Shown here piece by piece: positions 16,576-62,080 of a stretch of 64,000 nt of DNA. Position numbers and translations under genes: made by a program. The DNA is from Telopea speciosissima (Eukaryota > Streptophyta > Magnoliopsida > Proteales > Proteaceae): assembly GCF_018873765.1 (NCBI RefSeq), contig NC_057916.1:28247501-28311500 (forward strand), read 5' to 3'. How positions within the stretch are numbered: position 1 is the stretch's first letter; every line of letters starts with the position of its first letter. The notes beneath the pieces are model-generated. The model was not told the origin of the DNA, searched no databases, and was given only the letters and a program-made list of their open reading frames with translations.

Positions 16576-16618
<43 letters not shown>

Positions 16619-26546: not shown

Positions 26547-26581
<35 letters not shown>

Positions 26582-28380: not shown

Positions 28381-28419
<39 letters not shown>

Positions 28420-34400: not shown

Positions 34401-36801
34401 GAATCAAGCTCTGCTCTGATTGCATCACAAAGGCTGGCGATGACATATGATTGTGGAAGTAACACTCGAAGTAGTGTACAACAACCTTATAAACCGAGTC
34501 ATCAGAGTACTGGAGGTACCCTAACCTAGGGTATATATCTCCAAAACGTAAGGAACTCGATCGAGAGCCACCGCTACTAGATGGTGCCCGTGGAACCGGC
34601 AAAGACATGTATGGCTGGGGGGCCGGGACCCCAAAAATGCTTTCCACAAAACCTGACTCAGTGTGTGAGTGTGACTGACCTTCATACTTATAGGCAGAGG
34701 GTAATGATGATGAAGAGCCGGCCTCTCCAAAGCCCCCAAACTGACCATACCCAGCATAGTGACTATACTCGGAACTGGTGCTCCCCGTGCCATATATTGA
34801 TGGTGTATGCCACTGCTCCCTATGATGAATACCACTCTCCATACTCAAGCCTCCAATACTGTCAGTCAAGCTCCTGATCGTGTCATCCAAGCTATCTTGC
34901 TGCTCCCCAGCTTGTTTTTTGAATTTCTGACATGAGCCTCTCGGCCCTCTCCTGTAGGCAACTCCACCATGGGCCTCATCCTGTGTGGCATGAGTGAATT
35001 GATTCTCTCCTGTGAAGTGCACTGGCTCAGGCTCACGCTCTGGCTCCTGGTAGTGATACCTCTCGCGCATACCCCCATCACCACCATCACCCCCGGCTGG
35101 ATCATCCCCATCATCATCATCACTACCAGCACCACCATCACCCTCGGGGGCCCCGGCTCAATCACCAAGCTTTGATTAGGAGCTTCAATCTTCAATGCAC
35201 CAAGCTTTGATGAGGTGCTGGAGGTGGGATTTGCCAAAAGAAGTGAAAAAAACCCCCAAAGATGGAGTTTTCCCCTTCACAAAGGCGAGACAGGCGAGAG
35301 AGAGGATATCTCGTCGAGACATGTAATTTTTGTACCATAAGTAAAGTCTGGTTTGACTGAGTCGAACCGAAACGAGATATAGAGCCGAGATCTCGAGATC
35401 TTGAAGTATTTGTGTATCACAAGGTGTCTTGTCTTGACACAAGGTGTCTTGTCTCGACATCCCACAAAACCGAGATCTCAGCGAGATCAAACCGAGATCT
35501 CAGCAAGATCTCGCCGAGATCTTGAACAATTGTCAACGTTTATAACATACACATGAACACATGCTATTCAGCTGCATCCCATTCTGTCAATCGCCTCCCC
35601 CCCCCCCCCCCCCCTTGATCAGTATATGGTGAAGGGACGACTGAATAGAGGTATTGGCCTATGGTTGCCTTCAGTAGCAATGGAAAGAAATGTTTCAAGA
35701 ACAATTAGTTCGCTGCCTTTTACAGGTTGTTTTGAAAGCCAGGCGTCTCCAAAAGGGAATAAAGAGGTCTTTGGGTGCTAACTTGGTAGATGCCAGACCA
35801 AGGGATTTTAAAACTTCAGCTGTGAACTTTGCTTCAACAATATCTTCAGCATGGGAAGTATTTCCAAAACCACAATTCGGACTTAGTAGTACCAGCTTTA
35901 AATACGCTTCAGTGGCAAGAATCTAGTGAGGATTGTAGTATGCATCAGGGCCAGAGAGACTTTCATTTGTCTCTCAGGAATTCCTCTAACCTCAGCTTCA
36001 AGAAATTTTCTCACTTTTGATCATTAATAAAATTAAAATCCATCAGTTCGAAAAAAATTAAAATCACATATTCAACTTTAGCCATACTATCATTCTTTCA
36101 GAAATGCACGCATCCTTACCCCCCCCCCCCCCCTTTCACGGAGAGGCTGCTTCCTGACTCGAACCTGTGACCACTAGGTTGCAATGGAGCAACCTTAATG
36201 TTGCACCGAGGTCCGCCCAAAATAAAGCTTACAAATTGCAGATAACAAAATGGAAGGCTCGAGTCAGAAAAATGATAAGGTCAAAGTACCACGTTGGGTG
36301 GGGGAGGTGGAGGAGGAGTACTATGTGTAAACATTCAACCTCCATCTAATTTGTGCTAAAGATTTCCCATCTATAACAATAACTTCTAATGCAGACTGTT
36401 TAAATTAGCTAGAAAATGACCCGCCAATAGTGGAGAATTCCAATTGACATACCCCTCCCGCCTCTCCCCCCACTAGAATTCCAATTGTTTCCTCCCAGAA
36501 AATCCCTCTCTTCTTCCTCACCCTCTTCTAGGTAGGCAGGCGTCATAGTCAGTTGGTTAGTAGGTAAGTGGTATCGGAAAACACAATCGCCAGTTCGCCC
36601 ATAATTTCTATTCAAAACCAGAAGCTAAATCTAACCCTAATCACCTCCCAAAAACGCGCACCACCACAAGACGTTTCCATCTCTAATCAGCAAAAAACAA
36701 CCAAGCATCTCTTTAATACACCAGACAAGAAATAGAATCCGAGTTTAATTAGTACCTGAAACTTGCGAAGGTGCCGAGCTCTCCACCACCCTCACGGGCA
36801 T
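22552..36801 (-). CDS. GID4: GID4 (Vid24 family), substrate receptor of the GID/CTLH E3 ubiquitin ligase
   Basis: Eight exons: 36801-36756, 32930-32875, 30731-30588, 25591-25518, 25327-25273, 25151-25089, 24997-24870 and 22630-22552, all GT-AG, in phase, giving 214 residues. It begins MPVRVVESSAPSQVSG, continues ANQGHALPPAFTLLSVGQ, then the beta-barrel of the Vid24 domain: RVNVRIQGCDLDHGYLCG, VVTFWEGEIVDTKNYTFFTG, RHWSKFPSF, VEVDGGKSLDLSNYPYVFM, RWKEQYFVNVGIDCGLTIAG, GSINGFYYDP and a C-terminal LELKSTNEGRSGFSF. In yeast and humans this domain binds N-terminal proline degrons and delivers clients to the GID/CTLH ligase; plant orthologues are well conserved. The frame is intact across all exons. 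Introns 1, 2, 3 and 7 are 2.1-5.0 kb and packed with hAT elements, LTRs and LINE/SINE pieces, while introns 4-6 are 91-190 bp. A promoter with similar sequence reappears beside a GID4 relic at 52899-53310. Confidence 0.93.
26135..26240 (+). mobile_element. RTE LINE 3' end fragment
   Basis: About 100 bp match the 3' end of the RTE LINE at 5180-5310: cttgtttcaaatatgacctc, gagctgtttggagggcaagg, then the tail gttgggataaggctgag followed by ttgttgttg. It lies in GID4 intron 3 and is a short, 5'-truncated insertion typical of LINE reverse transcription. Confidence 0.8.
26570..27817 (-). mobile_element. LTR-retrotransposon fragment: LTR (27385-27817), primer site and leader
   Basis: 27385-27817 begins on the minus strand TGATGCAGGAG and ends CCCATTA. 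Two bases further is the primer-binding site complement gctctgatacca (27371-27382). The sequence towards 26570 is a pyrimidine-rich leader. No polymerase region was found, so the element is incomplete. The LTR is interrupted by a long poly-G tract near 27475-27511. The end signature resembles that of the element at 45003-48683. Old fossil inside GID4 intron 3. Confidence 0.6.
28387..28416. repeat. (AT)n microsatellite
   Basis: A pure AT dinucleotide tract of about 15 units in GID4 intron 3. Confidence 0.9.
28990..30106 (+). mobile_element. Non-autonomous hAT element, copy A
   Basis: 1,117 bp flanked by a perfect 8-bp duplication AGTGAAGG (28982-28989 and 30107-30114), the size made by hAT transposases. 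Ends read CATAGTACAAAAACTTG and, inverted, CAATGTTTAAAATCTC. Both subterminal regions are dense in CGAGATTTCG and TTTCGGTC words. The interior (29331-29621) encodes 96 residues including FGDPYPRIGYLQHVDDDIYM, related to copy C, and DYDVAFICP, which recurs in copy E. No transposase core is present. Located in GID4 intron 3. Confidence 0.82.
31682..32589 (+). mobile_element. Non-autonomous hAT element, copy B
   Basis: About 0.9 kb with the family's subterminal words (gagatctcggcgag, ctcgactcg) at both sides and the right end gagttttagtaccttg. The interior at about 32080-32190 reads YMLAVEHYMQHYSHI, resembling the VYKVVVHYFE region of copy C. No clear 8-bp duplication was found, so the edges are approximate. 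Located in GID4 intron 2. Confidence 0.65.
33882..35531 (-). mobile_element. hAT element, copy C, with longest coding tail
   Basis: 1,650 bp flanked by gtcaatgt (33874-33881) and gtcaacgt (35532-35539), an 8-bp duplication with one change. The left end caaggttttaggtttcgg is the inverted form of the family's right end. The right side holds repeated ccgagatctcagcgagatc. The minus strand 35070-34321 carries an open frame of 249 residues: an acidic Gly/Asp-rich start, RRGPRG, a Ser/Gly/Tyr-rich middle, and FGDIYPRLGYLQYSDDSVYK, related to copy A. It resembles a low-complexity transposase tail; no DDE core is seen. Located in GID4 intron 1. Confidence 0.78.
36105..36225 (-). mobile_element. SINE fragment (tRNA-derived, Au-like)
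   Basis: The minus strand reads ggtgcaacattaaggttgct, ggtcacaggttcgagtcagg, cagcctctccgtgaaa, then a long poly-G and gtaaggatgcgtgc. It matches the SINE at 51446-51591 (ggttgcaggttcaaaac, cagcctctccgcgaa, gtaaggttgcgtac), but the 3' third is absent. The poly-G of about 16 replaces a run of four G in the other copy. GID4 intron 1. Confidence 0.7.
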
Positions 36802-37221
36802 CTTGCCGAACGATCAGTCAGACAAGGTCGAAGGAACAAAAACGGTACCTCGCGGCTATGCTCCTTGGTCTAAACCGCTCACCAGAGAAATCACAGATGG
36901 ACGGGAAGAAAATAAAAAGCAAAGCAAATCTCTCAAGAGGAGATCGACCACTGGTTCACCCGAAGACCAACCATCAACGTTCACCGGGCGGTCAGGACGG
37001 AATCCGAACCGTCTCCGGCTCGCTAGCACGGCGATCGAATATATTCCAGAGTTCCTCTTCGGAACCGGACGAGTGAGAGTTTGACCGTGTAAATATCAGT
37101 TCAGCGGGTGAAACCCGATTGGAATGAGACTAAACGGTTCAACCGGTTAGACTTCGGCCATCTTTGATGCTTTATAATCAAAACTCGCCTCGCGCGCTCT
37201 CATTTTTGCCTGTGTGGGAAG

Positions 37222-38256
37222 CATGGAATAAAAACTCGAACGAAACCTGTCGAAGCCATCGAGTTAACTTGGTTTCCTAGGTTTCTGAGACGAGTTGAAG
37301 GGGGATTTTATAAAATCCCTGGATTTGACCAGGTTTCGATGGTTTCGACCAATTTCGATCATATTTCGGTGGTTTCGACACATATGCCCATCGAAACTAG
37401 GGGAAACTTGGCTCGAAACTTGGACAGACAGGTATTTAAGCTAGAAACTGCCAGAAACCAGGACAAACATTTAGTTATGTCTAATATCATTTAAGTAAAT
37501 GTTTCATTTACTTAAGATAATATTCATAAATAAGCAAATACCCCCTATTTGAATTCAATAAAAATAGTTAAAAAGTCAAATTCCAAAAGGAAAAAAAGTC
37601 AACCCCCCAGTTCAAGAATAAAAACTGAATTTTCGACGGTAAGTGCAATTTTCAACTTTTTAATGCTGAGGTTTTTCTCAAATCTAAAAATTCCATAAAT
37701 GTCAATATGGCAAAACATTGCTAAAAACCAAAAGTGCGATAAAATATTCATTTGTTTTGATGTCCAAAAAAATATTTTCATTTAGAGTGATTTTGACAAC
37801 ATTCGCGCACACCAAATTAAGTTTGACCAGTACATAACTCCTTCAATATAAATTAGATTTAAGCAATCTTGGATTGATTGAAAAGCTATCAAAACAAAAC
37901 TTTCTAACAAATCCAAGATTACTTAAATCTCATTTATATTGAAGAAGTTATGTCCTAGTTAAACCTTATTTGATACCATGTCCAAGAACAATATACAGTA
38001 TCAAACTTGGATCAAAACCACAAGTAATATTTTTAGTGTTCTCTATGTGAAACTAATGCATTGATTGAGTTTAAAATGTCAAAAATAGGGTAGCACAACA
38101 AGAATTAGGGCAAAAAACCAACTTTTGGGCCTCGAAACCAATGTTCGAGTTAGTCTGGAGAAAGTCCCAAGTTTCGACTGAGATATGGTCGAAACCGAGA
38201 CGAACTCATTTTCTGACTGGTAGAAACCTAATTGAAACCCGAGTTTTAGAACCTTG
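37222..38256 (+). mobile_element. Non-autonomous hAT element, copy D
   Basis: 1,035 bp flanked by a perfect 8-bp duplication GTGGGAAG (37214-37221 and 38257-38264). Ends are CATGGAATAAAAACTCG and, inverted, CAAGGTTCTAAAACTCG. Subterminal words are TTTCGA and CGAAACC types instead of CGAGATCTCG. The middle (about 37850-37950) has an imperfect inverted repeat around aagcaatcttggattga / tccaagattacttaaatc. No coding match. It lies between GID4 and the hAT-derived gene relic. Confidence 0.82.
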
Positions 38257-38456
38257 GTGGGAAGAGTAGAAGCGTTTCAAACACACCAGAAAAATAATAC
38301 TAGTAAGTACCAATAATCTTTTCCTGTTTGGTTAATTTGTGAAGATGTCAAGCAATCATTGTTAGTCTGTTAGTACTTAGTAGACAAAGATCTTATTTGG
38401 GTCTTTATTGTTGATTGACGGATCGTGGTCTAGGCGGACCACGTCTAGAGACATAA

Positions 38457-38560
38457 CTGCCTAATCGCTTTGGAAATGAACGCCTTGCTGCATTGAATTT
38501 CCATCTTTTCATGAAGGTAAGGCGGTTATTTCCAAGGCGATTAGATGTGAGAGAGCGCGA
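38457..38560. repeat. Short hairpin repeat
   Basis: The arm 38459-38492 (ctgcctaatcgctttggaaa tgaacgcctt) is the inverse of 38518-38548 (aaggcggttatttccaaggc gattag), with few mismatches. Looks like a small MITE; no target duplication resolved. Confidence 0.5.
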
Positions 38561-38654
38561 CCGATTAGATTAGCGTTCTTAGATCCTTACTTTATTTTTT
38601 CCCCCTTTGAATAGGAACGACTTAGTTGTAGTTTAATATGGAATGGTTGCAACC

Positions 38655-39330
38655 CTGTTCGTTTGCAAGGATAAAATTTGAGTGGATTAGTGTAATACTT
38701 GAGAATGCTCAAGCAATAACAAGAATTGTATATTGTCATGCTTTGGTTCTAAATATTACAAGAAGATAAACATATGGGAAATATTTAGTACAACCAACTG
38801 AACCATTGGTTGCTCTTCAACAAACTTTATGAAGCATGGTTGATCTCAAAAGTTATATTTAGGCAATGTTTGCTTCACAGAAGTGGATGGACTGCCATTA
38901 TTCAAGAAACCAGATGGGATTGCAATGCTCAATATCATTTGTAGCGATTCTTTTCGGTCTTCATGTAGCACTGTTGTCTGTTTAACAGACCCACTCTCAA
39001 GAGTGTTCAGAAGGGTTAGTTGTAAGAAGAAGCCAGCAATGGGATACATTTATGCTTCCATGTAAAAATAAAAGAAGCAATAAAAAAAGGAACTGGTAAA
39101 GAAGAAGTTTTATTTGGTCTACTTATGGAGGAGCTGGGTTGGCTGCTTGGCTATAAGCGTTCTCAGTCAAGCTTGTAGTGCAAGTGTTTTCAAGCGAAAT
39201 CAGATATCTCTCAAACAAATCCATTACTAACAAGGGGTGTATTTTGAGGCTGGAAAGGGAAGTAGTTGGTCATGAGACTCTTGCAAGTTGATTTATGATT
39301 GTGAACAGGAAAGATTCATGGTGATGATAG
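38655..39330 (+). pseudogene. Decayed partial copy of the hAT-derived gene at 53801-56539
   Basis: The sequence follows the intact gene in order: aaatttgagtgg (parent 54877), acatatgggaaa (parent 54969), agaagtggatgg, then the readable block 38883-39061 whose protein keeps PDGIAMLNIICSDSF and PAMGYIYASM against PDGLALIDVIYSQAF and PAMGYIYEAM in the parent. Then aaagaagcaataaaaaaagg jumps straight to ggtctacttatggaggag, skipping about 520 bp of parent including the intron near 55600-55820. Stops and frameshifts are frequent, and the N-terminal half is missing. It lies divergent to GID4, as the intact gene lies divergent to a GID4 relic. Confidence 0.85.
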
Positions 39331-40055
39331 ATTAACTCATGACACAAAGTGTAGATTCAGCTAGGCAAGTTCCCTACCTCCAGAGCGTGACCATTTGAAA
39401 ACTCTTTCACCCAAGCTTAATGGGTATGTTCAGCGCTGCAAGCGCCCCCCTCCTTGTCTTAAGCATGTGTTTACAAGTTTACAGATATTAACTTCTTCCC
39501 CCCCGCCCCCTCTCCTCTCTCTTAAGCACTGGTGGTTCGCAGCTCGTTCCATTTGCCATTTGGAATAAAAGAAATAGGAGAATTTTTGCTCGATTATGCA
39601 CTAATGTTGGACAATTCCTAGAGATTTTGATGAACATTGGAGACCATTTCTCCTTTGAGATTTTGGTTTCTTGAAGCTATGTTTTCCCTTTCTTATCACA
39701 TGGTTAGTCTTTTGCTGTAAATGTACACTTTGTAAATGCTGTAAACATCTCCTACTAAACTCATTAATGACATTATTTTTTGGTGACAATAAAGAAAATG
39801 TTATAAGATTAAAGAATAGTTAAAATCTGAAGAATAATACCTACTGCATTAATAGCATCATTACCCTTACTACTGAGTAAGGGTTCAGGTTTAGGACTAA
39901 TATCCTTTTATTGTTGTTCCAAACCTCCATTGAAAAAGTGAAATTCTGAACGATAACTAAATGCTATGTGTTTGTATTTATGTGCATGTTGCATTAATGA
40001 ATATACAAAAATAGAGCAGATTTCTTACTCAACCTTTGTGGCATGTTTTACTGCA

Positions 40056-40245
40056 CAATGCAGATCATCTACGGCCCAGCTGCCCGTAGCAGCCTGTGCA
40101 GTGCAGACTGGGCTGCGTGCGCAATGACCGCCTTACCCCTTGCCCAACGCCTTGCCCGAGCGGGGGTAAGGCAGTCATTGCACACATGGCCCTGTCACGT
40201 CGCACAGGCTGCTACAGGTAGCTGGGCCGTAGGAGATCTGGATCC
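40056..40245. mobile_element. Foldback MITE with 9-bp target duplication
   Basis: 190 bp flanked by TTTACTGCA at 40047-40055 and again at 40246-40254. The arms are long inverted repeats: ctacggcccagctgcccgta near 40070 against tacctgtagctgggccgtag-type sequence near 40215-40233, and gcaatgaccgccttaccc against gggtaaggcagtcattgc. A 9-bp duplication and long arms suggest a MULE-related MITE. Confidence 0.8.
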
Positions 40246-42659
40246 TTTACTGCAAGCATGCCAAGGCAGCGACGTTGCAGCCAGGTGAGTACCCAAATTT
40301 AATGGACATGTTCATAACTTCATATTATCACCTAGTAATGCGTCAAATCCACTCAAATCTGACTTCCACTTATCATCATAATATTTCACAAATTGTTTGA
40401 AAACTTCAATTCTTTTCAAGACTTGGGATATTATAGACATCCAAAAAATGAAGAGAAGCCTGTTCTTGGTGGTCTATATGATTGCCAACTATAATTTGGC
40501 ATATGATCTATCTAAGAATTCCCTGCCTTTCAAATGAATGCTAAACAATTTCCCACATAAAACAAAAATAGATGCATGGAGAAGGTATTCGTAACAAGCA
40601 TTTAAGAACCCTTTTTCTAAGAGAAGTATGATCTACAGTCGAATACCAAAGCCGTTTGTTTGCTCACATTGAGATACCTGCCGATGACTGCAGAGCAAGA
40701 TCATCAACTGCTAATTGTCTTACAACAGAAAATTACATAAATATAAAAAAAAAAAATGGTTTGCAACACAATTGTTCGGGGGGCTGCCATAGCTCTGCAA
40801 CCAGTGGTGTAGGTGTGGTTAATAAAAGGTCAATGGCACAAGGTAAATCTATTCTGGCCTGTCCAGTAAATGTGTCATCCACATCCAGTGTCTAGGAGTG
40901 GATAATGTCCATAAGTTAGTCTACATTTCCTCTTTAACTCTGTGGGATATTAATCAAGAGTATATCAAACCCCCCCCCCCTCTCTTTGAGGAATAGAGAA
41001 TTTGAGTTTTTTTTGAGGAGGGGCGGGGGGGGGGGGGGGGAGGAGGATTTCATTCCATCAACAAGTTGAACCATGCTGGCATTAAATAAAAAAAGTTTAG
41101 TCAATGTGATCGAATAATCTGTGAACAAAAGAAAAAAAAATCAGCAATGAAAATCAAAATAAAATAAAGGATGAGGGATTGCTATTCTGCTCAACCACAA
41201 CATTTTTTGAGAGTTGGATGAGATACAATCATAAGGGCATTTCAGATACTTCAGACCATTGTGGTAATTATTCCAATTACAGGGTGTATTGTTCCAGACC
41301 ACGAATTCCCTTAGCTGGTCTACGAAGTAGAGTTTTTTTTGCCTAGAACAAAAAACCAAAAAAGAAAAAGAAAAAACATCGTATGGTTTGTAGGAAAACC
41401 ATGGGAATCAAGCAATTAGATGTTTTTTACACCTTACCTTGGAGAATCCCTATTTCAGTAACTTTTTGACAGCTCAATTGTGGTCTGATTTTTCAAACAA
41501 AGGTTTCATCAAGTTTTCCTGGTTGCTAAAATAACACTTAAAAAAGAGTCAAGTGAGTTCTACGCGAACTTTTCCGAACTGGAAAACATGGAAACAAAGA
41601 GAAAACACACATATAAACAACAAAAACAAACAAAATATTTTAAAAAGAGTTCATTAATAGGAAGAATTAGGAAAACATTCCAAAGAGGAACAGTTGAGTA
41701 ATTAAGTTGTATGAAGCATTTTTTTTTTGGCAAAACTGCATTGTCACATCTTAGAGCCATGATTATAAGATCGTTGCCAGAAAATTTTGAAACTGCGAAA
41801 CTTGTACCCAATACATGACAATCATGTTATAGTGAAACAGTTGGCAGTCAAGAATTATTCTCCAACTCAATCTTATCACATTAAAAGAAAAAGGAAAAAA
41901 AAAATGAAGAACGATGCAAACTTGAAACACAAAATTGTAGAACCAATGCCAATCTATTCATCTTAAGTACAGAACCATAAAGAACCAACACGATGAATAT
42001 GTTTATCCAAGCCCATCCATGCACTTCTATTGATGTCCATCGATGCGAGTCCTCTATGTGCAGTATGTTTCTCTTATACAGGCAGGTATATTCAGTTTCC
42101 ATTGTATGTTTACTGGAACCAGGGTGGAGCTTCATACAAATTAGGCGAGCGCAAGTACTTCATCTTCTAGGCTTTTTTTCCTACACATCAATACCTCCGA
42201 TTGAAAGTTGTGTTATTGCTGGTTGGAGTCATCACTTCATTGAAAACAGCTCCTGCTGTTCTGTATCTTTTCTACTTAACAAGATACGCATCATCATGGG
42301 GGTTCAGAAACAGGAATTCGTCCCTCGCAGAATTTACAAAGATCCTCCAAACTGTGTCCCTCACCAGTATGATGAAACACATAGGAAGCAGAATTCTGGC
42401 CTTCACCTATCATCCTAAAAAGACTTTTGAATTCACATAGCAACTAATGGTTTCAAAAGCACCTTCTTGGAGGTGGACTGCATGGAAATGTGTAGAAGGG
42501 AGTATTAGTCAAGCTAAAATAAAGGAAAGTTGTTGTTCAAGTCTCCTCCAACTGGAAAGGTTAAAATCTCCAGCATGGTTGTTCTGGTACAGAAGTTGCA
42601 ATGAACTCTTAATTATTGGCTCCAGAGAAGGGAGGTGATTGTGGTCCATTAGTTTGAGT

Positions 42660-43468
42660 CAAGGTACAAAAACTCGTCTCGAAGAGGTGTCTCGAGCAGG
42701 TCGAGATTCTCGAGATATCACCGAGATCTCGGCGAGATAGTGCATTTTTTTTTTCTTTCTGGTTTGATGTTTCGGTGGGCAAATGGCCATAGTTGGCTCC
42801 CAAACTTTAAGAGAAACTTTTTTAGACTTAATAAACATATTTAAATCTTCAAAATGTCAAAAAAAAACACCCAATTTTATGCTTTGGATTTGCACCCTTG
42901 GTTGGCAGTAAATGTTGAGTCCTCACGTAATATTTGCCTATACATATTGATTGAGTGCTATGAGACATAATGGGCAAATATAACAAGTAAATTATGCAAT
43001 AATGGATAAAGACACATAATATTGAATAATTATTTAAGACATAGTTAAGGACTTAAAGTAAAAACTACAAAGTACAGTGAACAATGCATGTTAAATAGAC
43101 ACCCAAGTACAATGAACAATACATATGTCATAGACACCATAATCTTCCATGTCCCCACAATACAATATTGTGAGTCTGTCTATTGATATGAACTATGACA
43201 TGCTGGATCAAGTCCACACATGGTCCGATGGAACCGACGTGCATTGTCTTCCATCTACATGACATATGAATGCTACATCATAGTGTTTGAGAAGAAACAA
43301 GAGTAGTTTCTTCTCAAGCAGGTCGAGATATCGGAGATTTTCGAGATTTCGCCAAAATTTCGACTGAAATATTCGAAACACTGCAGGTTTTAAGTTTCAT
43401 ATGTAATCTCGTCTCGAGGAGCTCGAGATTCTCGAGTTATTGAGATCTCGCCGAGAATTAGAACTATG
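42660..43468 (-). mobile_element. Non-autonomous hAT element, copy E
   Basis: 809 bp flanked by a perfect 8-bp duplication GTTTGAGT (42652-42659 and 43469-43476). Ends are CAAGGTACAAAAACTCG and, inverted, CATAGTTCTAATTCTCGG. Subterminal words are ctcgagattctcgag and gagatctcggcgag. The minus strand near 43270-43200 encodes YDVAFICHVD...QCTS, matching YDVAFICPIV...QCTS of copy A. Shorter than A; no transposase core. Confidence 0.83.
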
Positions 43469-45002: not shown

Positions 45003-48000
45003 CCCCACGATTTGATTATGATGAATGAAAATATTGCTTTGCTTTGTTGCAATTGTGATTTCTTCTCAAGTTGAATGATTGACTAGAAGGGCTGAAGGAG
45101 CCTGGCTGAGAGAGCCTAATCCATCTATCCCCCCAACCTTCTATTTCTTATTTTCTCCATTCTTCTTCTTCTCCATCGAGCCTGGTTTGCTGGGAAGCTC
45201 CTCCACTGCACAGAAAGCCATCCGAGATCTGTTACTACTCCTCCAAGTTATTCTAAGTTGCTGCCATTGCTGCTGGAGAACAACACAGCCTGATTTGGAA
45301 GGTTTTTCTTTAACCTTCTATTTTGGTGGTTCCTTGATAACTTCACATCGAGCCATCAGAAATGAATCAAAATTTGAAGATAGCCTCTCCCTAGCATTCT
45401 CTACCTTCGATCCAAAGGAGGTGTCCATCAGTTGGCTGGTTTGGCTAAAACCCTATCCTTCAAATTTCTGGTTCTGTTGCTATGTTGGATTTGTCGGTTT
45501 ATCGATCCTAATGTAGAGTGGTTCTCAGCTGAACCTATTCTACATTATTTGGTATCAGAGATAGGGTGGATGGAAGCTCCAACCAAGCCTCGATAGATCC
45601 ACCTCCCTTTGTTTTCAAGATCCGAGTTCGTCTACCCAATGGGAGCACAGCCATATTATGCGTTGATGAGAGGCGACGTGACAACATTATTTCACAATCT
45701 GTGGTGGATATGTTGTCTCAGATAGGAGAGATTTGCATCATGCCTACAGGTCAAGTCTTTGTTGAATTTGAGTGTTCCTCATACTATGACGATGTTTGGT
45801 GTCAGCCGGTACCATCTCCAAAAAGCTTTATTGCAGTAGGTTGTGATTGGTTGGACGAGCGACCAGGTTAGATTGAACCTAAAAACAACACGTGTGTCCT
45901 ACCTGATCGACAACATCTATACCATTGTTTTACTTTAAAAGGGTTACAACCAAATGTGACAACATCGACGGTACAGCCACAAGGAACGCCGAACATATCA
46001 ACTCAAAAGCAAGTGGCACGACTGTTATTGAAGCTTCACCAATGGCTGATGCACCAACAGAAGATTCTACTAAGACAGTCGGTGTTGAAGAAATTCAAGA
46101 ACATATAGCTAACAAAATTCAAGTAGACCAAGCTGCACCAGTGGTTGAGAAGCTCAACCATCAAATTGATGTGGAGGTCAAGAACACAATGGTAGAAGAC
46201 GAGCTAGAAGACGACCCCATGGACACATCTAAAGACGTTGAAGTGGCACACATGGAGTTTATCATCCCCTTGAAGTACCTTGAAGAACAACATCATTGCC
46301 TCAATGACTACATTCGTACATCCAAGGAATCACCCGAATTTTTCTACAGATTGAAGATGGATGTGCACCATACTAAAATCACCCTAACATTCTTTTCGAA
46401 GAGGGGGAGAGTTGATGTAGATCAAAACCTGAAGAAGAAGAGGCCAAAACACTGTTCCCATTACTGTTCACGTGAACAGTGTCACAGCCCCTTATTTTTG
46501 GCTTGGTGAGAATATTCCTTGAAAAATTGTGGGGGCAGATTAGTCTTTTAAGTATTAGTTATTCAAGTCTTAAGTGAAGGGCAATTTTGTCAATCTTCTA
46601 AAGCTAATAAGTTGAATTGATGGGGACCACAGGCTGGAGATTTCGGCTGCAACAATTAAGTCATCCAAGTGGGTCCCACAAGGAGATTTGAAGACTTAAG
46701 AAGATTTAGAAGATTTTAGAGAAAATTACTTGGACACCCCCTGTACTATGGTCATTTTGCTTACGATTACCAACATTTGAAACAATTACTTGACACCCCC
46801 TGAAACCTGACTGTGTTAGTCTGCTGTTAGGGTTTAATTGGAAATGTCCATTTTACCCTTATCACCTTTTCAATAGAAAACAACAAAATTGACAAATTTA
46901 CCGCCCTTCTCCTTCTTCTTCTTCTTCTTCCTCATGCAACCCCACTACCCCTACCTCCTACTGATTTCAAACCCTAATCGATTTCAGAAAATTTCTCTTT
47001 TCTTAAACAAATTTCAAATCAAAATAACCCAAAACCCTTAATCGATTTTCAAATTAAGGGTGTGAATCCGAAAATCGATTAAGATTCAAACCCTCAATGG
47101 TAACTGGAATCAAACTTATTCACCTACAAGAGGAACTGTAATCAGAAGTGGACCGGTAGGAAAGGATGCCCATGTTCATGAACTATATTTCCTCTTTCTT
47201 GTCCGATCCTGGATTTGGGCCAGCATTGACAAGAGTATTTGGACTTTGGCCAAATGAAACATCTAATTTTGGCGACACTAAACCTTATTTTTATCGTAAT
47301 CCTCATACAGACACATAGATCCAAACAACTAAGCTGATTCGTGAGTGGTATTAGTGTGAAGGGTTCTTTTGAATCTGATACTTTAAGTGTACGTGTTAAG
47401 CTTTCACTTTCCCCTTCATATATGGGTTGGTGATGAACTAATAATGTAATGAACTAATGATGGGATCCACTTCCTCAGAAAATTAAGGAAGAGAACTAGA
47501 AATTCTGGATTTCAAACCGATAAAACACATGTCAATACGAAGATGAAATGAGAAGTAGAAGTAAGAGCCAAAGACTCCTATCAATGTGAAAGGTCCTTAA
47601 GATATTCCCTCTGCAAATGTCGCTGGGAAACTAGAAAAAAAGCTACGATTCAGCAAAGAACAGAGACAGAGGTAGAGTGTAAGAGAGAGAGAGTGAGAGA
47701 GCAAGACAAGTAATCTTGTAGAACTTTCAAACCCTTAATGGTTTTTGCAATAGCAGCCATGGCTGCCGGGTTGTTTTTTTTTTTGGTTGCAGGAAGAAGA
47801 AGAAGAAGGGGGGGTAAATATGTCACTTCACCACACCTTAAGGGTAGTTTAGGTATTTATAAAAAATTTAACCGATGGTAACGGTGAATGACTAACGGAC
47901 AGGGCTACTTGAAAGAAATGGTAAACTGCAGGGGGTGTTCAAGTAATTGTTTCAAACTTTGAAGAGACTAAGTAATTAGGCCATAGTACAGGGTGTGTCT

Positions 48001-48683
48001 AAGTCATTTTCTCAAGATTTTATTATGTTTCTATTTTTATTTCAGTCCTAATTAGAGTAGTTTCTAATTCTTAAGATTGAGTCAATAAGGTAGTTTCTAT
48101 TTCTGTCTTTTCTTGAGAAGCAAGTGTTGCTTCTATTTATTTGTAAGGCTGATATAGCCATCCCCACGATTTGATTACGATGAATAAATATATTACTTTG
48201 CTTTGTTGCAAGTGTGATTTCTTCTCAAGTTGAGTGATTGACTTGAAGGGCTGAAGGAGCCTGGCTGAGAGAGCCTAATCCATCTATCCCCCCAACCTTC
48301 TATTTCTTATTTTCTCCATTCTTCTTCTTCTCCATCGAGCCTGGTTTGTTGGGAAGCTTCTCCACAGCACAGAAAGCCATCCGAGATCTGTTACTGCTGT
48401 TCTAAGTTATTCTAAGTTGCTGCCATTGCTGCTGGAGACCAACACAGCCTGATTTGGAAGGTTTTTCCTTAACCTTCTATTTTAGTGGTTCCTTGATAAC
48501 TTCACATTGAGCCATCAGAAGTGAATCAAATTTTGAAGACAGCCTCTCCCTAGCATTCTCTACCTTCGATCCAAAGGAGGTGTCCATCAGTTGGTTCTAA
48601 TTTCTGGTTCTGTTTCTATGTTGGAATTGTAGGTTTATCGATCCTATTGTAGAGTGGTTCTTAGCTGAACCTATTCTATATTA
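45003..48683 (+). mobile_element. Non-autonomous LTR retrotransposon with unusual internal ORFs
   Basis: Direct repeats 45003-45547 (5' LTR, truncated on its left) and 48162-48683 (end of the 3' LTR) are highly similar, starting ccccacgatttgatta. The 3' LTR begins TGATGTAG at 46413 after a purine tract (gaagagggggagag), and the LTR ends CTACATTA/CTATATTA. A primer-binding site TGGTATCAGAGA is at 45550. The 3' LTR is about 967 bp without the inserted MULE (46719-48013). The interior of about 0.87 kb carries two open stretches (45566-45871 and 45925-46509) but no reverse transcriptase or integrase; the first has a weak retropepsin-like layout. It must have moved with help from another element. 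High LTR similarity suggests moderate age; incomplete. Confidence 0.75.
46719..48013. mobile_element. Non-autonomous MULE nested in the LTR
   Basis: 1,295 bp flanked by a perfect 9-bp duplication AAGATTTTA (46710-46718 and 48014-48022), the Mutator signature. The terminal inverted repeats are about 85 bp: gagaaaattacttggacacc on the left against gagaaaatgacttagacaca on the right, continuing through ctgtactatgg, gaaacaattacttg and acaccccctg. The interior has a (CTT)n tract near 46911-46931, a poly-T tract near 47774 and no transposase; whether the middle holds captured gene pieces is undetermined. It inserted after the host LTR element. Confidence 0.9.
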
Positions 48684-50679
48684 GGGATGGGATGGGTCTC
48701 TCACCGTACCTGCCCCTCACAGCCATTAATGGCTTTAATCAAGTTCATTCTTTTTTTCTCAATTAGAATGGCGAGCTGGAAAGGTAGACTTTTATCCATG
48801 GTGGGTCGTGTTGAGCCGGTTAGATCTGTAATTTCTAGCAAATCAGTCCATAACTTCTCAATTTATTGGTGGCCATTAAATCTGATTTTACTTCTTGAAA
48901 GATGGATGAAAATTTTATTTGAACAGGAGATATTGAATCACCTAAATCTATTGTGGTAAAATGGGATAACTTGTGCAGACCGAAATATGAAGGTTGTCTA
49001 GGCATTCACAGGCTTTCTGACATCAACAAAGCTCTTCTATGTAAGTTAGCATGGAAGATCAAGCACGGAGATTCTCAGATATCATTTTTTCAAAGGAGGA
49101 TTTTTTCAGCCTAACGGTTCTTTCAAAAGATCCTACTGCTCATCTTCTATTTGGCCAGACTTAAAAAGAGTTTGGGACTTTATCTTCTCAAAGGAGAGAT
49201 GGATTATAGGGAAGGAAAATAACATCAATTTCTGGAATGACATATGGTTAGGCAATCAATCAATCGCTCATTCTTCAAGTCTCCCTTCTTCTCTTCTTGT
49301 TGATTCACAGATTAAAGTCTCAGACTTCGTCATAAATGGAGAGTGGTCTTTTCCTAATGTTTATTCGGCATTCTTGAATGAGATATTTTCCAAAGCAATG
49401 TCAATCCAGATTGCTCCAATGGATGTTGATGACAGGTGTATTGGAGTCCCAATTCGTCTGGCACCTTTCACTGTGTTCTCTGCTTGGGATGAAATAAGGC
49501 GTAGGAACCCAAAATTTCCTTGGTTTTCGTTAATATAGAATTCTAACTTGCTGCCCAGATTTTCAATCTTTGGATGGCGTCTCATCTATGGTAAACTTCA
49601 AACAGATGATTCTGTAACTTCCATGGGGATTAATGTTACTTCAAGATGTGATCTTTGCCAATCACACATTCACACCCGGAGTCTCTTCAACACTTATTTC
49701 TGGAATGTGACTTCACGAGGAAGATATGCATTGGTTACCATTGTTTTGATGTAACATCCATTCAAAAACTATCCCAATTGGATTCGAAAATCACGCATAA
49801 TCTCTCTTAAAGGTGTATGGAAATCTGGTATTGTGATTATTCTTTACAATCTATGGGTAGAAAGAAATCTAAGACACAAGGTAGTAAGAGATTTCATCAA
49901 ATTGTCTTCAAAAAGATCTTACATGATCTTGGAGATATAAGCAGCAAGCTTAAAGGCTGGGTTTCTACTGTTGCTGATTTTGTTTGTGTCTCCAAATTGG
50001 GGCTGTCAATTAAAGCTAAGCCTCCCAATCGTATCATTGAAACTTTCTGGTGTAAACCAACTTACCCATGCATCAAACTAAATACTGATGGGTCCTCCTT
50101 GGGTAACCCAAGAAGAGCTGGCGCAGGAGGTATTTTCAGAGATTCCCAAGGTAGTATTATATTTTCCTTCAAAGAATATCTTGGGATAGAAACAAATTTT
50201 GCAGCAGAATTTTATGCATTAATCAAAGGTCTTCACTTCACCAATGAGATGGGATTCACAAATATTTGGATCGAATTTGACTCGGCATCTGTTGTTGTCC
50301 TTGTTCAAGCAAACCATCTTCCTTGGTTCCTTTGGCAAGAGTGGTCAAGTCTTCAGCCCCTTCTTTCTTCTATCAATTTGAAGATCACTCAGTCTCTTAG
50401 AGAATCCAACCCAGTAGCAGACTACTGTATCCGGATCAGTCATTAATTTTCCTTTTCATATTCAAGAAGAGATTAGAAAAGATATTCTAGGGATGCCCAG
50501 CTATCGATTTTGTTCTTAGATTTTGAAGTTGGGAAGCCCTATTGATGGCATTGTCAAAGGTGGGACTGTCCTCCTTTATTTTGTTTTTGTATCCCCTAGG
50601 TATGCCCAGGTTCATTCTTTGTAAATCCCTCTTTTTTTAATATATTCTTTCTGATTCCTAGCAAAAAAAAAAAAAAAAG
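48684..50679 (+). mobile_element. 5'-truncated L1 LINE with RNase H domain
   Basis: The block near 48770-48900 reads MASWKGRLLSMVGRVEPVRS, VISSKSVHNFSIYWWP, the end of a plant L1 reverse transcriptase. 49640-49690 reads CDLCQSHIHTRSLF, the zf-RVT zinc finger. 49817-50446 holds an RNase H domain: LNTDGSSLGNPRRAGAGGIF, AAEFYALIKGL and IEFDSASVV, so the catalytic Asp, Glu and Asp positions are visible. Frameshifts and stops break the frame. The element ends in a poly-A tail at about 50663-50679. Confidence 0.88.
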
Positions 50680-51299
50680 CCTACTCCTTAATTTATAATT
50701 CCAACTGATTACATCCTAGGTTCTTCTAGAAATGTCTCAAAACAAAAGTTCAATTAAAATAGAACTCCTATTCCTAATCTAGAAAATAACAAACTTCTAA
50801 TTACCCACGCAAGGCAGCGGCCTTTTTGGATTCAAAGTACTCCACGCAAGCTGTCATGTGGGCTCACCAAATCTGAGTAAATACCTCCTCTTTAATCCCA
50901 ATTATCTCTAACTCTAATTACATCAAATAACAGAATTATATCCTAATTAGAAACCTATCTACAACAGCTGTAGGAGTCCTCCACGCATTGGCAATTGAGT
51001 CTTCAAACTGATCTCATCCAGCTGGCTATGGGGCCACCAGATCTACTAAAAAGTATTCCCAAACCAAGCAAATATAGGCTGTGACACTGTTCACATGAAC
51101 AATGTTTTGGTCTTTTCTTCTTCATGTTTCTCCAAGCAATCTGGACTTGAGCTGCCTTACGAGATGATCCTTTGAACCAACAAAAACCTGCCACATCACC
51201 AGACCAGGCTGCCTCTCACAGCAGTTGAATCTCACAACTACACTGGGCTGGTTTTGGGGCTTGGACCTGCAGCTACACTTGGACCTGTGATCTACATCA
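50680..51299 (-). mobile_element. LTR fragment related to the 45003-48683 element
   Basis: The minus strand begins TGATGTAG at 51299 and shares with the 3' LTR of the upstream element the blocks gaagaagaaaagaccaaaac and gtgaacagtgtcacagcc. It also carries about 100 bp absent there, so it is a diverged family member. It ends against the poly-A tail of the L1 LINE. No second LTR visible. Confidence 0.65.
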
Positions 51300-51445
51300 A
51301 TTTATGTTACTAAAACACTTTTAGTAAACTACCGAATGATAGAATTTAAATAACCTGATTTACAATGTATGGATAAAGAGGCAAATGTCAATTATTACTT
51401 AGTACAGACTCACAAATATGTGAACCAATGTGTTATTTCTTGCAA

Positions 51446-51591
51446 CGGTTAAGTTAAGTTATTGCAACAATCAGGTTGCAGGTTCAAAACATGGAAACAG
51501 CCTCTCCGCGAAGCAGGGGTAAGGTTGCGTACATTTGCCCCTCCTAGACCCTGCAGTAGCAGGAGCCTCGTGCACTGGGAGACCCTTTTAT
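51446..51591 (+). mobile_element. Au-like SINE with 19-bp target duplication
   Basis: 146 bp flanked by aatgtgttatttcttgcaa (51427-51445) and aatgtgctatttcttgcaa (51592-51610), one mismatch. The head has a tRNA-like B box (ggttcaaaac). The body cctctccgcgaagcaggggt, aggttgcgtac and cctcctagaccctgcagtag, then ggagcctcgtgcactggg, matches the angiosperm Au SINE family. It ends in a short T run. Complete copy. Confidence 0.85.
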
Positions 51592-51610
51592 AATGTGCTA
51601 TTTCTTGCAA

Positions 51611-52898
51611 AGACAAATCTATGTTAACCCTTTTCCACATTATTCAAGGAAATTATGGGTCAGAATGACTAATGGATCAAGGTATATAATGGCAAACCAA
51701 TGAGAAATTATCAATATTATGACTACCTCCCAATTACTTAAGAGTCATTTTGTGGCAGGGAATGTCAGGTCTTTTGTAGAGTAATTGCTGATATGCAGGG
51801 TTGATTGTTCCCTCTCATGAACACTATGGTTGTTCAGAAAAAAATGTTGGTATTATAAAGTTATTTACTCGAACACAAACACTTTATAAGATGGAATCTC
51901 TTGTCAATATGTGGAATCAGTTTGATTCTCTGGAGTCCTTTTTGTTAATTCTGAAGATGACAAATCTACACAACCTTTCTTTTCTCAAATGGTCAACATT
52001 GATGATTTGAATATGTACATAATCAACCAACCTAACAAATTTTCATTTTCATTGCCATAGTCATTGTTGTCATTATCATCAGATCCTTATCCAATCTATT
52101 CGGTGTTGTAGGTATGGTTGGACCATTAAGTTTTTCACAGAGGTAATTATGATAGTTCAGGTTCACTATTCTTGACCAAGAGCCACAGAATTTTTCAGCA
52201 AAGAAACTTCTTGTGCTTATAAGGATTTTTTTTTTTTTGGGGGGGGGGGGGGGGGGTGTTGTGTTGCTGGTCGTAGAAAAGGAGCTCTAGCAGTGTCTAC
52301 TCCAGTTAAACTCCCATCTTCTCCAATTCTTCAGACAGGAAAACAAATCTTATAACAGGTGCTATCAGTGGCTATCCACCCTAACCATCAGCGCATTAGA
52401 AGAGAGGAAAGACATTTAAAATAGAAGAAGAAGAAGAAGAAATCCACCTTCCATGTAAGCCGTGATGAGCTACTGCATTAAAGCAATCGTCCCCCACACC
52501 CGCCCACCTTTGGGTTGTCCAATATAAAGTTTTCCCATCACTAGTGAGAACTGAGAATAGAAAATAATGGTGAAGACAAACCAGCTGACTAAAAGAAACA
52601 GGTTTGAACAGAAATTGAGTATAAAACTCCAATATTCCGATGTCAACACTAAACACACCAACATTCAAGTACTTAACCCTAACCCTAAATTCTCTGAATA
52701 TTCGTCAACAATAATACGTTACGTCCTCAGATTAACCAAAAATATCTAAAAGAATCTTATGTTTCATCGATCAAATAAGTTTCAGAGCTGATTCCAACCG
52801 TTGAAGTAAATAGAGGAAAACGGATCTCAATTCGAGCAAGACATCAATGGATCATCTTCCAACAACAAAAACGAATAATATCGAGATTTCAAGACTAC
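51611..52898. other. Region upstream of the GID4 relic
   Basis: No gene recognised. I looked here on the minus strand for further GID4 exons and found none. Notable are a T/G homopolymer tract at 52227-52255 and a gaagaa tract near 52425-52440. Confidence 0.6.
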
Positions 52899-52937
52899 CT
52901 GAAACTTGCAAAGGCACCGAGCTCTCCATCGGTATCA
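52899..52937 (-). pseudogene. Relic of GID4 exon 1
   Basis: The minus strand reads ATGGAGAGCTCGGTGCCTTT then GCAAGTTTCAG and a GT donor, encoding MESSVPLQVSG against VVESSAPSQVSG of intact GID4 exon 1, with the donor conserved. The sequence before it does not keep the MPVRV start. Exons 2-8 are not found in the 13 kb downstream. Homology continues into the upstream region (52940-53310 against 36802-37165). Confidence 0.8.
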
Positions 52938-52939
52938 CA

Positions 52940-53800
52940 GACACATAGCACAGATCGATCGGATCTAAACGATCAAACGCAGCAAGTCGAAGAAAGAAAA
53001 ACACGCTGTAGATCTTTCTTTTGCAAGAGAAAACGAAAAATGCGGAGAGAAGCCGCAGCAGAGATATCAAAAGCCCGAAGAGATCACAGGTTCGCCCGAA
53101 AAACGCCGTTCTCCGGCCGGTCTAACCGGCGTTCAAACCATCTCCGTCTCTGCACGGCCACCGGAGGTTCGTTTCTCCTCCAGCGAAACTGGTCTAAGCT
53201 GGAGTTTGACCGCGTAGGAACCGGATCATCCGGTAAAAACCGATCTGGTCGGGGGAATAAAAGTGAGTAACAAACCGCGCTGGCCACAGAACTAACCGGT
53301 TCATCCGGTTAAGTTTTCCACTCTCCTCGACTGTTTATATACAATGAACCCGGCTCTCGTTCAATTTGCTCTCGTCAACACAAATATAAGAGAAGTCTCC
53401 CTCCCTCTCCCCCCCTTTTTCTCTAGCTCTCTCCCTGTCTCTCTCTCTCTCTCTCTTACTTTCTCGCTCGTGCGTTTTTGTGACTAGCTGGATAGGCCAG
53501 TGCTCAGAGATTTAAAAAGTGGTTAGAATCACAAGCTTCAAGTAAGTACTGTAGCTCCTGTTCTTTCTTTCTTCTCTCTGTTTTTGTAGTTAGTAGTTAG
53601 ATTATGAATGTATATTGTGAACAATGCATGTGATATTGTTTTTTAGTTAACAAGTTTAAAGGGTTTTCGTGTTAATTAGTCTATTTGTTTTCTTTTGAAG
53701 AGTGAAGTATTTCTTGTCTTCTATGCCCTGCTGCCTGCAATCATCTGCTACTTAGGGGGGGTCACTGCCAATTTTAGCAATTTTTTTTTTTTTGTTCTTC
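52940..53800. promoter_or_regulatory. Former bidirectional promoter and 5' UTR of the hAT-derived gene
   Basis: 52940-53310 shares ordered blocks with the GID4 upstream region at 36802-37165: ggttc(g/a)cccgaa, aacc(g/a)tctccg, gagtttgaccg(c/t)gta and ctaa(c/a)(c/g)ggttcaaccggtta-type. The stretch 53400-53455 is CT-rich, as in plant 5' leaders. A likely 5' UTR intron starts at gtaagtact near 53541 and ends before the ATG at 53801. Confidence 0.6.
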
Positions 53801-56539
53801 ATGGAATCTGAATTGGAACCCATGCCTATTGGGTCGCAGAAACGCGACCTGGCTTGGAAGCATTGTCAGATGTTTAAGATTGAAAATCGGATTCGACTGA
53901 AGTGTATCTATTGTGGTAAAATGTTTTCTGGTGGGGGAATCCATAGAATTAAAGAACACTTGGCTGGACAGAAAGGTAATGGAGCTACTTGTCCAAGAGT
54001 GCATCCTGATGTGAGGCATATAATGAGGCAAAGCTTAGATGGGTCAATGGTGAGAATGAAGAAGAAACAAAAGATTGCGGAAGAAACTGCTAATCAGCTT
54101 ATGATTACTAATGAGGTAGAAGCGTATAACCCTCACTGTGAAGCAATCACAGGACTCCAATTGCTTGCAGCTCCCAATTCAGGTGAAACGAATTTGGGTT
54201 TGTCAGCAAAGGAAGAAGAAGGAATGACTGATAGAAGTTCAGAAAGATGGAAAAGAGGGGCAGTTGGAGACCCTTCTTCGGCTCCTCTGGTTACTCATCC
54301 TATTAGAGAACTCACTTTAGGATTAACAAGGGGGAAGGATCAAGTCCATATGGCAATAGGTCGGTTTCTATACGATGCTGGGGTGCCTCTAGATACAGTA
54401 AACTCTGTCTATTTTCAACCAATGGTCGATGCGATTGCATCGGAAGGACCAGGGTTCAAACCACCATCATATCATGATCTTCGGGGTTGGATTTTGAAGA
54501 ATTCAGTTGAAGAAGTAAACAAAGTTGTAGATCAGTACAAGGGAACATGGGGACGGACTGGATGCTCTGTCCTGGCTGATGAATGGACTGTGGAAGCTGG
54601 TAAAATTTTGATAAACTTCCTGGTTTATTGTCCTGAAGGAACAATGTTTCTGAAATCAGTTGATGCGTCGGACATAATTAGATCACCAATCGCTCTATAT
54701 GAACTGCTTAAAGAAGTGGTGGAGGATGTTGGAGTGCAACATGTATTGCAGGTGATTACTGATAGTGCAGAGAACTATATTGAAGCTGGGAGATTGTTGA
54801 CAGAGACCTTCCCCACTATTTATTGGACCCCGTGTTCTGCTCGTTGCATTGATTTGATGCTCGAGGATTTTGGAAAATTTGAGTGGATAAATGCAACTCT
54901 GGAGCAAGCCAAATCAATAACGAGGTTTGTATATAATCATGTTGAGGTTTTGAATATGATGCGAAGGTATACATATGGGAAAGATTTAATACAGCCAGCA
55001 ATCACCCGCTCTGCAACAAACTTTACAATTTTGCAGGGCATGGTTAGTCTTAAAAATAGTTTGCAGGCAATGGTTACTTCACAGGAATGGATGGATAGCC
55101 CATACCCGAAAAACCCAGATGGACTTGCATTGATTGATGTCATTTATAGTCAGGCTTTTTGGTCTTCATGCGTCACTATCATCCGTTTGACAGATCCACT
55201 GTTGCGAGTTTCAAGAATTGTTGGAAGTGAGAGGAGGCCAGCAATGGGATACATTTATGAGGCAATGTACCGAGCCAAAGAAGCAATAAAAAAGGAACTG
55301 GTTGAGAAGAAGGATTATCTGGCATACTGGAATGTTATTGATCACAGGTGGAACAGGCAACTTCACCGTCCTCTTCATGCAGCAGGTTTCTACCTGAATC
55401 CCAAGTGTTTTTATAGCATTGAAGGAGATGTACCTAATGAAATCATGTCGGGGATGTTGGATTGTATTGAAAGATTGGTACCTGACACGAAGATCCAAGA
55501 TAAAATCACTAAAGAGTTGACCTCATACAAGAATGCTGTTGGGGATTTAGGGCGAAAGATGGCCATTAGAGCTAGAAATACTATGCTTCCAGGTATGCAC
55601 CCTTTCTTTATATTTGAGTAGTCTTTTGTGTTTAATGTTCCAGGTTCTCTTTTGTTTTTAGTCTTTCTTTTTCTAGATGACTTAGATCAGAAGATAGCAA
55701 TACTGTGATACATATGACAGAGAGAGGACTGACTTTACCTGTCTTCCGATATTAGTTAAAGTGTTCCAGAACATATTTGCTATGCATACAACTGATGCTT
55801 TCAAAATCTTAACATCTGTAGTCGAATGGTGGTCTACTTATGGAGGAGGTTGCCCGAGTTTGGCACGCTTGGCCATACGTATTCTTAGCCAAACTTGCAG
55901 TGCAATTGGTTTCAAGCAAAGTCAGATTTCTTTCAGACAAATCCACCACCAGAGGAGAAACCACATCGAGCATCAAAGGCTTAGTGACCTCATTTTTGTT
56001 CAACACAATTTGCGATTGCGGCAAATGTATGTAAAAACTACTTGACACAGCAGCTGTTTTGTTATAGCATTCTTTTATCTTATTTGTATGACTTAAAAAG
56101 TGGAAAGGATAAGAAACAGAGAGAAATCCAATGTTGTGTTTAATGACTCTTCACAGGCTACATAGGAAGAATAAAGAACTGGATGCTTTAGATCCCATCT
56201 CCTTTGACACAATGGGTACCATTCAGGACTGGGTAACTGAAAAGGAAAAACTCTTAGCAGAATATGGAGGTTCAGATTGGAAGGCACTTGTCCAGCCTGC
56301 AGCTAACACTATGTTGGCTGTCTCTCCAAATGATGAGACTGAAGGCTTGGTTGCAGGTAATATCCATTCCTTGGTTTAGGAAATGCACGTAAGAAGTTCA
56401 CACTCAGTTAACTTATCTTGGACAATGAACAGGATTTGAAGATGATGAGATTCACAATGGTGTGAAAGATGATGGCGATAATGACACTGAGAACCAGTTG
56501 GAAGATGATGGCGATGGGGACCTGGGAGACCAAACATGA
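53801..56539 (+). CDS. hAT-transposase-derived gene (BED zinc finger, DUF659, hAT dimerisation)
   Basis: Four exons: 53801-55592, 55822-56026, 56157-56356 and 56433-56539, GT-AG and in phase, giving 767 residues. The start is the ATG of MESELEPM; the frame upstream has no ATG. Residues about 15-75 form a BED-type zinc finger (LKCIYCGKMF...HRIKEHL). The DUF659 region follows with YHDLRGWILKNSVEEV and TGCSVLADEWTVE, then the hAT core. Exon 2 encodes the dimerisation region (WWSTYGGGCPSLARLAIRIL). The tail is acidic (Asp/Glu/Gly). Similar single-copy hAT-derived genes exist in Arabidopsis (for example the At1g79740 and At3g22220 group, from memory). Introns, an intact frame and no terminal repeats suggest a domesticated gene, possibly a DNA-binding regulator. 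A broken paralogue is at 38655-39330. Confidence 0.88.
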
Positions 56540-61562: not shown

Positions 61563-62080
61563 TGCATCCGGATTCTGGAACCTTAAACCCTCCTTAATTG
61601 AAACACATTGGTATCTTAGTTTTGCTGTGTTTTTCTTTACTTGTTCTTCATCCTTTCTTCTGTTCATGAGACCAACTAAAATATTAAAACATAAACAATT
61701 TAAGGTCAACCACCTAGTTGCCAAGTCAAGTCGAAGAGTTGTTAGACCATCCAATCATATTAAATTGCATGCAGAGAATTCACATGCCAGCCAAGGCGGA
61801 TTCCCATAGAATTAAATTGTGGGGACCAGCTAAAATACTTCAGTATTACTGGAATTGGAAGCTAAATAGCAATTAATGGAAAATTTCAAAGGGGTTGGGA
61901 ATTTTTTTTATTTCTTCCTATCAGTATTGGAGAATTGGAGAATCAAATGAATGAGGTGCAACAAAACGGTTTCATACATAATAGGGGTAAAATGATTCTT
62001 TCATGTGAGAAAAAGAAATAATCATATAATGCTTCAGCAGTTCATAGAACTTTTTTCCTTTATAATATTAGTAGGGAGAA

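Follow-up and report, generated by a model that had tools for sequence, protein, structure and literature searches.

The GID4 gene and its hAT-derived neighbours

The window, by which is meant the whole 64,000-nucleotide stretch of waratah (Telopea speciosissima) DNA analysed here, positions 28,247,501-28,311,500 of the chromosome referred to as C1, contains an intact GID4 gene on the minus strand, which runs from 36801 to 22552 and in a hand-built model has eight exons encoding 214 aa. Exon 1 (36756-36801, minus strand) is coding, ends in phase 1 at the donor CAG/GTACT, and is supported both by the gene model and by homologous exon-1 sequence, with its splice donor, in all four of the promoter copies described below. 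Exons 2-8 (22552-32930, minus strand) are placed at 32930-32875, 30731-30588, 25591-25518, 25327-25273, 25151-25089, 24997-24870 and 22630-22552, exon 2 having been picked as the top-scoring candidate (35 vs 26). The protein matches Pfam Vac_ImportDeg (PF09783) with an E value of 4.1e-50 and 170 bits against a curated cut-off of 27, and its closest solved relatives are human GID4 chains (E 3.5e-30); the gene is assigned to GID4 on both grounds, and the intact minus-strand gene with its first exon at 36801, as proposed in an initial annotation of the window, is thereby confirmed. Comparing the protein with the whole genome at E values up to 10 gave eight matches, all eight of them in exon 1 or exons 2-8 of the window gene, exon-1 relics being too short for detection by this search. 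A survey of the GID/CTLH complex found one sequence per component in most species and duplications in some plants (PMC3797097), and the return of GID4 to single copy described below agrees with that survey.

The second intact gene, termed hAT1, is hAT-derived and occupies 53801-56539 on the plus strand, where it had also been annotated initially; a hand-built model gives four exons (53801-55592, 55822-56026, 56157-56356 and 56433-56539) and a protein of 767 aa. BED, DUF659 and hAT C-terminal dimerisation domains all score above their cut-offs in the two genes scanned, window hAT1 and a gene termed hAT2 on a second chromosome, C2. A genome search with the protein of hAT1 exon 1, in which 72 of 3830 candidates were scored and 75 stretches matched, returns three close copies, namely window hAT1 itself (100%), C2:1367514-1369334 (88%) and C2:1389278-1391125 (70%); beyond these, the best match among those scored is 43% identical and the remainder span 31-43%. 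A four-exon structure is common to the three intact genes (window hAT1 and both C2 genes), and their pairwise Ka/Ks of 0.19-0.21 indicates purifying selection. Of the 20 other hAT loci that can be aligned at the CERNWS motif, 16 retain its acid; the three genes (FKQSQIS, FKQNQIP and FKRHQIS) lack it, as do the three loci closest to them. We take this acid to be the catalytic residue of hAT transposases, so that its loss marks the genes as domesticated. Judged by domain content, loss of the acid, low copy number and purifying selection, all of them read from sequence, hAT1 and hAT2 are domesticated hAT-transposase genes.

On C1, hAT2 survives only as a pseudogene upstream of GID4 (38673-39233, plus strand), comprising an exon 1 piece at 38673-39121 and an exon 2 piece at 39115-39233; the edges of 38655-39330 given in the initial annotation are about right, as the alignment to C2 hAT2 covers 38673-39233 plus 32 bases at 39313-39344. 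The piece contains in-frame stops and indels of 8, 1 and 5 bases, and the start and N-terminal part of exon 1 have been deleted at about 38666/38673, where the alignment to reversed C2 jumps from 43822 to 44994. Over 444 sites it agrees with C2 hAT2 at 362 (81.5%) and with the gene at 53801 at 321 (72.3%). Quartet sites divide 51:2:3, with the 51 favouring a pairing of the decayed piece with C2 hAT2, and a maximum-likelihood tree recovers the same pair with moderate support (84/89) and the hAT1 pair with 100/99. By codon position, the decayed branch has 25/12/12 changes and the C2 hAT2 branch 3/2/13 (Fisher 6e-4), which indicates that the decayed copy is free of constraint and C2 hAT2 is constrained.

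The genome holds many hAT-type transposases, as the 75 matched stretches attest, and the decayed piece could in principle be a dispersed hAT copy or transposon that came to lie near GID4 by chance. Against this, its 81.5% identity to C2 hAT2 is found at the collinear place, exon by exon and behind the same upstream promoter; the alignment with C2 continues through both of its flanks; and the three close copies, window gene included, are all that were found among the candidates scored. A chance landing is accordingly so improbable as to be negligible, and the piece is taken as the decayed C1 counterpart of hAT2. The initial annotation had held that its being closer to a dispersed copy elsewhere than to the gene at 53801 would refute the duplication; such a copy exists in C2 hAT2, and duplication nevertheless stands because that copy lies at the collinear place with the same promoter.

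Between the GID4 promoter and the decayed piece lies a non-autonomous hAT-type element of 1,035 bp (37222-38256, plus strand), flanked by the 8-bp target duplication GTGGGAAG at 37214-37221 and 38257-38264. It adjoins, on the downstream side, the TATA-like site of the lost hAT2, and C2 has an empty site. The target duplication, inverted CAAGG-type ends (an end consensus that is presumably of hAT type), many copies and the empty site together identify it as non-autonomous hAT; 40 copies were scored of 4370 candidates, window copy included, of which 36 match end to end, and the other 39 are 86-93% identical to the window copy. Its insertion was considered as the cause of hAT2 death and rejected: in a rough comparison, the 7-14% by which copies differ, set against the 49 changes assigned to the decayed branch over 444 sites, indicates that the element probably arrived after hAT2 had died.

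A relic of exon 1 of a second GID4 lies at 52899-52944 on the minus strand, some 16 kb away and facing hAT1, and its identification in the initial annotation (as 52899-52937) holds, with the splice donor kept at 52899. The start codon is GTG in place of ATG, a change common to the corresponding relic on C2, and by eye the two hAT1-side relics have further changes of the first codons in common; the second GID4 was therefore dead before C1 and C2 were doubled. At the GID4 site of C2 exon 1 alone was found, with ATG and splice donor kept and, by eye, a private frameshifting deletion of 2 bases. A search for GID4 exons 2-8 covered 40000-52800 of the window, the corresponding interval of C2 and the place of GID4 on C2, and found none; the matches obtained resembled repeats, low-complexity stretches and two short candidate intron remnants, the latter being matches to GID4 introns at the C2 GID4 site that may be remnants of the lost gene.

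The relic at 52899 might still be in use, either by GID4, whose alternative first exon it would be despite the distance, or as the start of a noncoding RNA from the hAT1 promoter, as it has an in-frame ATG at old codon 6, ends at a retained donor and matches the live exon at 31 of 37 bases. Its conservation between C1 and C2 (32 of 37 bases) is, however, no better than that of the hAT1 introns and 3' flank (80-92%), and the donor is kept on C2 as well, where no downstream exon was found. Continued use is quite improbable.

The collinear segment on C2 and the order of events

The comparison covered 100 kb of C2, which is reversed relative to C1. Matches between window and C2 run in order from about 13847 to 57279 of the window, amid off-diagonal repeat matches, and the collinear block takes in the GID4 promoter and the decayed hAT piece, continues through the stretch beyond that piece, and includes the relic and hAT1. 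On C2 both hAT1 and hAT2 are intact. A collinear block on two chromosomes is what a segment pair from a whole-genome duplication looks like, and the hAT1 pair (C1 vs C2) has a Ks of 0.348 (0.27-0.41), while hAT1 vs hAT2 gives 0.98-1.00 (range 0.80-1.21). As the decayed piece pairs with C2 hAT2 and the hAT1 genes pair with each other, the tandem duplication predates the doubling onto two chromosomes.

The macadamia genome duplication has a Ks of 0.35 and is dated to 42.3 million years in the text of its report and to 46.8 in the abstract (PMC8752631); the 0.348 found here equals that peak, though it comes from a single dating gene pair and the peak is from macadamia, not waratah. The macadamia event has also been termed species-specific relative to grape (PMC8906886), and a report on the related Eidothea gives only limited evidence of ancient duplication (PMC13080361), both of which weigh against taking a duplication shared by waratah and macadamia for granted. 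Simple scaling of Ks puts the tandem event near 120 million years, as a rough figure.

Several other genes and stretches of the window were compared with C2. An intact legume-lectin receptor kinase lies at 59457-61754 (minus strand), with relatives on C1 at 28.32-28.34 Mb and a large array on C5 at 69.4-69.6 Mb; it was rejected as a second dated pair, synonymous sites being saturated and the collinear C2 copy an older paralogue, and the kinases at the right end of the block, not being a simple counterpart pair, count against a clean segment doubling. A PPR gene with an E motif is present at 7466-9454 (plus strand); of the 67 candidates scored for it, the top-scoring one is 37% identical and none exceeds 49%, and the lack of a close match on C2 near 1.4 Mb to this gene at 7.5 kb was likewise counted against collinear doubling. 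A gene with an LTI65/LTI78 PGEED repeat (13765-14793, plus strand) is matched at the collinear position of C2. For dating, the 14 leading tblastx pieces at 13-17.5 kb were discarded, their Ks values lying anywhere between 0 and 1.06, with 4-34 synonymous sites each and frames of uncertain coding status. The stretch 41549-44962 shares 66-77% of its bases with the collinear interval of C2, and no notable open frame is common to both; it was dismissed as a gene since translated matches hold stops in one or both copies, and a megablast of 41981-42415 against plasmids only gave no match. Between the two hAT loci an RNase H/reverse-transcriptase-like open reading frame (49811-50446, plus strand) is probably a retroelement relic, and a Pfam scan of the frames at 16570-17019 and 34324-35157 found no domain.

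The window taken alone, in which a single GID4 and a single hAT gene stand beside two relics and the promoters are homologous, fits a single tandem duplication followed by complementary decay on the same chromosome, for which a second duplication is unnecessary, and this was the reading of the initial annotation. Part of it stands: a head-to-head pair was duplicated in tandem and one partner was lost from each copy. The joining of both losses into one decay after the tandem event does not, as C2 has both hAT genes intact with the same promoters and the doubling falls between one decay and the other; the start of the second GID4 was lost before it, in common to both chromosomes, and hAT2 decayed later and on C1 only. 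A single duplication is thus very improbable as the whole account. As hAT2 decayed on C1 alone and remains intact on C2, it is the two chromosomes that show reciprocal loss, and tandem copying of the pair, then doubling of the segment, then reciprocal loss between the chromosomes is the overall explanation preferred here (probability about 0.9).

Substitutions and deletions in the two promoter halves

The regions upstream of both GID4 copies align in order with a score of 79, the maximum of 500 dinucleotide shuffles being 22.5, which bears out the ordered blocks that the initial annotation had noticed; with the exon removed the score is 49 against a shuffle maximum of 19, and a control intron gives no signal, its score being reached by 269 of 500 shuffles. 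The same blocks recur in a four-way alignment that includes both C2 copies. By hand count, start codons or their relics are about 810-860 bp apart, on opposite strands, at C2 hAT2, C2 hAT1 and window hAT1, and these loci thus have the geometry of divergent pairs with start codons within 1 kb; the GID4 locus of the window is excluded from the count, its hAT2 start being deleted and 1 kb inserted. In the window the GID4-side half of the ancestral divergent promoter, with the 5' leader, occupies 36802-36960 and appears constrained here, where GID4 was kept, and decayed on C2, where it was lost. The hAT-side half (36961-37213), which contains CCGGTT motifs and, near 37170, a TATA-like site, appears decayed here and constrained on C2. 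The second copy of the divergent promoter, with the hAT1 5' leader, is placed at 52945-53800 by the promoter alignments. All four descendants of the one divergent promoter are now one-armed, with GID4 at one of the four and a hAT gene at three. Near the TATA-like site (37135-37149 of the window and equivalents) all four promoters have CGGTTCA and CCGGTTA without change, and these are a candidate factor site.

To compare the halves, an alignment of all four promoters was built that extends from the splice donor of exon 1 as far as the TATA-like site, and a change was placed on one of the two GID4-hAT2 branches only at sites where the hAT1 loci have the same base. Over the 94 sites of the GID4-side half there were 6 changes on C1, which kept GID4, vs 21 on C2, which lost it; in the hAT-side half (183 sites) there were 20 on C1, which lost hAT2, vs 6 on C2, which kept it. 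With a split placed after the data had been seen, at a block common to the four copies, the crossed table gives a Fisher p of 9.7e-5, and two other alignments give 2.3e-4 and 3.9e-4; without coding exon 1, and with the same post hoc split, the counts are 6/16 and 20/6 (p 0.0012). Lineage-specific deleted columns show the same cross in three alignments, C1 vs C2 having 12 vs 42-46 in the GID4-side half and 30-38 vs 0 in the hAT-side half. Each half has therefore changed least where its own gene survived.

Local mutation rate or misalignment, rather than lost constraint, would be another source of such a pattern, and this reading draws on the outgroups, which align poorly and are saturated in the GID4-side half, on the post hoc split, and on the drop in significance at more distant splits, where without exon 1 p is 0.02-0.055 at 37000 and 0.04-0.085 at 37040. 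Against it, four alignment settings concur near the conserved element (p 0.001-0.005 without exon 1 for splits at 36940-36970), and a split-free rank test in one alignment gives p 6.5e-5, or 9.7e-4 without exon 1. The deletions repeat the cross, and among the controls the start of GID4 intron 1 has 12 vs 13 changes over 131 sites with no asymmetry. For the hAT1 loci, both of which are without GID4, the first of the three alignments likewise shows no asymmetry (9/8 and 7/11), and the hAT leader, where C1 was expected to be ahead, leans only weakly (15 vs 9 of 160 sites). Mutation rate or misalignment is thus an unlikely source, and lost constraint is the preferred one.

If lost constraint is accepted, the comparison of four copies hints at which portion of the control region belonged to which gene, and we infer that each half drives its own gene only. 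On a further reading, given roughly even odds, the stretch between GID4 and the hAT gene would at no time have been a single bidirectional promoter; two separable promoters would have abutted there, with their junction near 36,940-36,970.

Proposed history and comparison with known systems

In the proposed history, GID4 and its ancestral head-to-head partner, a domesticated hAT-transposase gene whose start codon lay about 0.8 kb from that of GID4, were duplicated in tandem (Ks about 1.0). The second GID4, copied fully or in part, then lost its start codon, its body being absent from both chromosomes, before the tandem block was doubled onto another chromosome (Ks 0.35), most likely in the whole-genome duplication known from macadamia. 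Opposite losses followed, C1 keeping GID4 and losing hAT2, C2 keeping hAT2 and losing GID4, and both keeping hAT1. The ancestral promoter may have acted as two abutting modules, with substitutions and deletions falling mainly beside the lost gene, and the end state is one GID4 and three hAT genes, none facing an intact partner. The locus also displays how a reading confined to a single window can fuse two separate duplications into one.

Among domesticated hAT genes, the SLEEPER genes (Ka/Ks 0.28-0.29; PMC3499209) offer a parallel in having an N-end BED finger, a C-end hAT dimerisation domain, loss of a conserved transposase residue and purifying selection (here 0.19-0.21); unlike them, the genes described here carry DUF659, a term absent from the text of that report. 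Here hAT1 and hAT2 are classed as domesticated hAT genes only and not as members of the SLEEPER family.

The loss of one member from linked pairs after genome doubling is itself a known event and well described. The linked clock pairs sMYB-PRR and PIF3-PHYA underwent fractionation after whole-genome duplication (PMC9516744), and the present case is similar in that linked neighbours were doubled, one member was later lost from a copy, and the linkage was broken. It differs in that the partners stood head to head with one promoter between them, the doubling was preceded by a tandem duplication, and each chromosome lost the member that the other kept. For the crossed decay of promoter halves, no description was found in the literature searched, which was covered in part, mainly as titles and abstract openings.

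The interest of the locus lies in an unusually clean natural dissection of a divergent promoter, which bears on the standing question of whether divergent neighbours have regulatory sequence in common or are simply adjacent. With opposite partners lost on two chromosomes and third and fourth copies serving as outgroups, promoter halves may be assigned to genes from sequence alone; if the reading as two promoters is true, evolution would have performed a dissection equal to a promoter-swap experiment. Divergently paired genes have been defined by start sites less than 1 kb apart (PMC2670823), and the pair described here resembles such bidirectional-promoter pairs in its opposite transcription from an intergenic stretch of about 0.8 kb, measured here between start codons; unlike in those pairs, each of its four descendant promoters now has a single gene.
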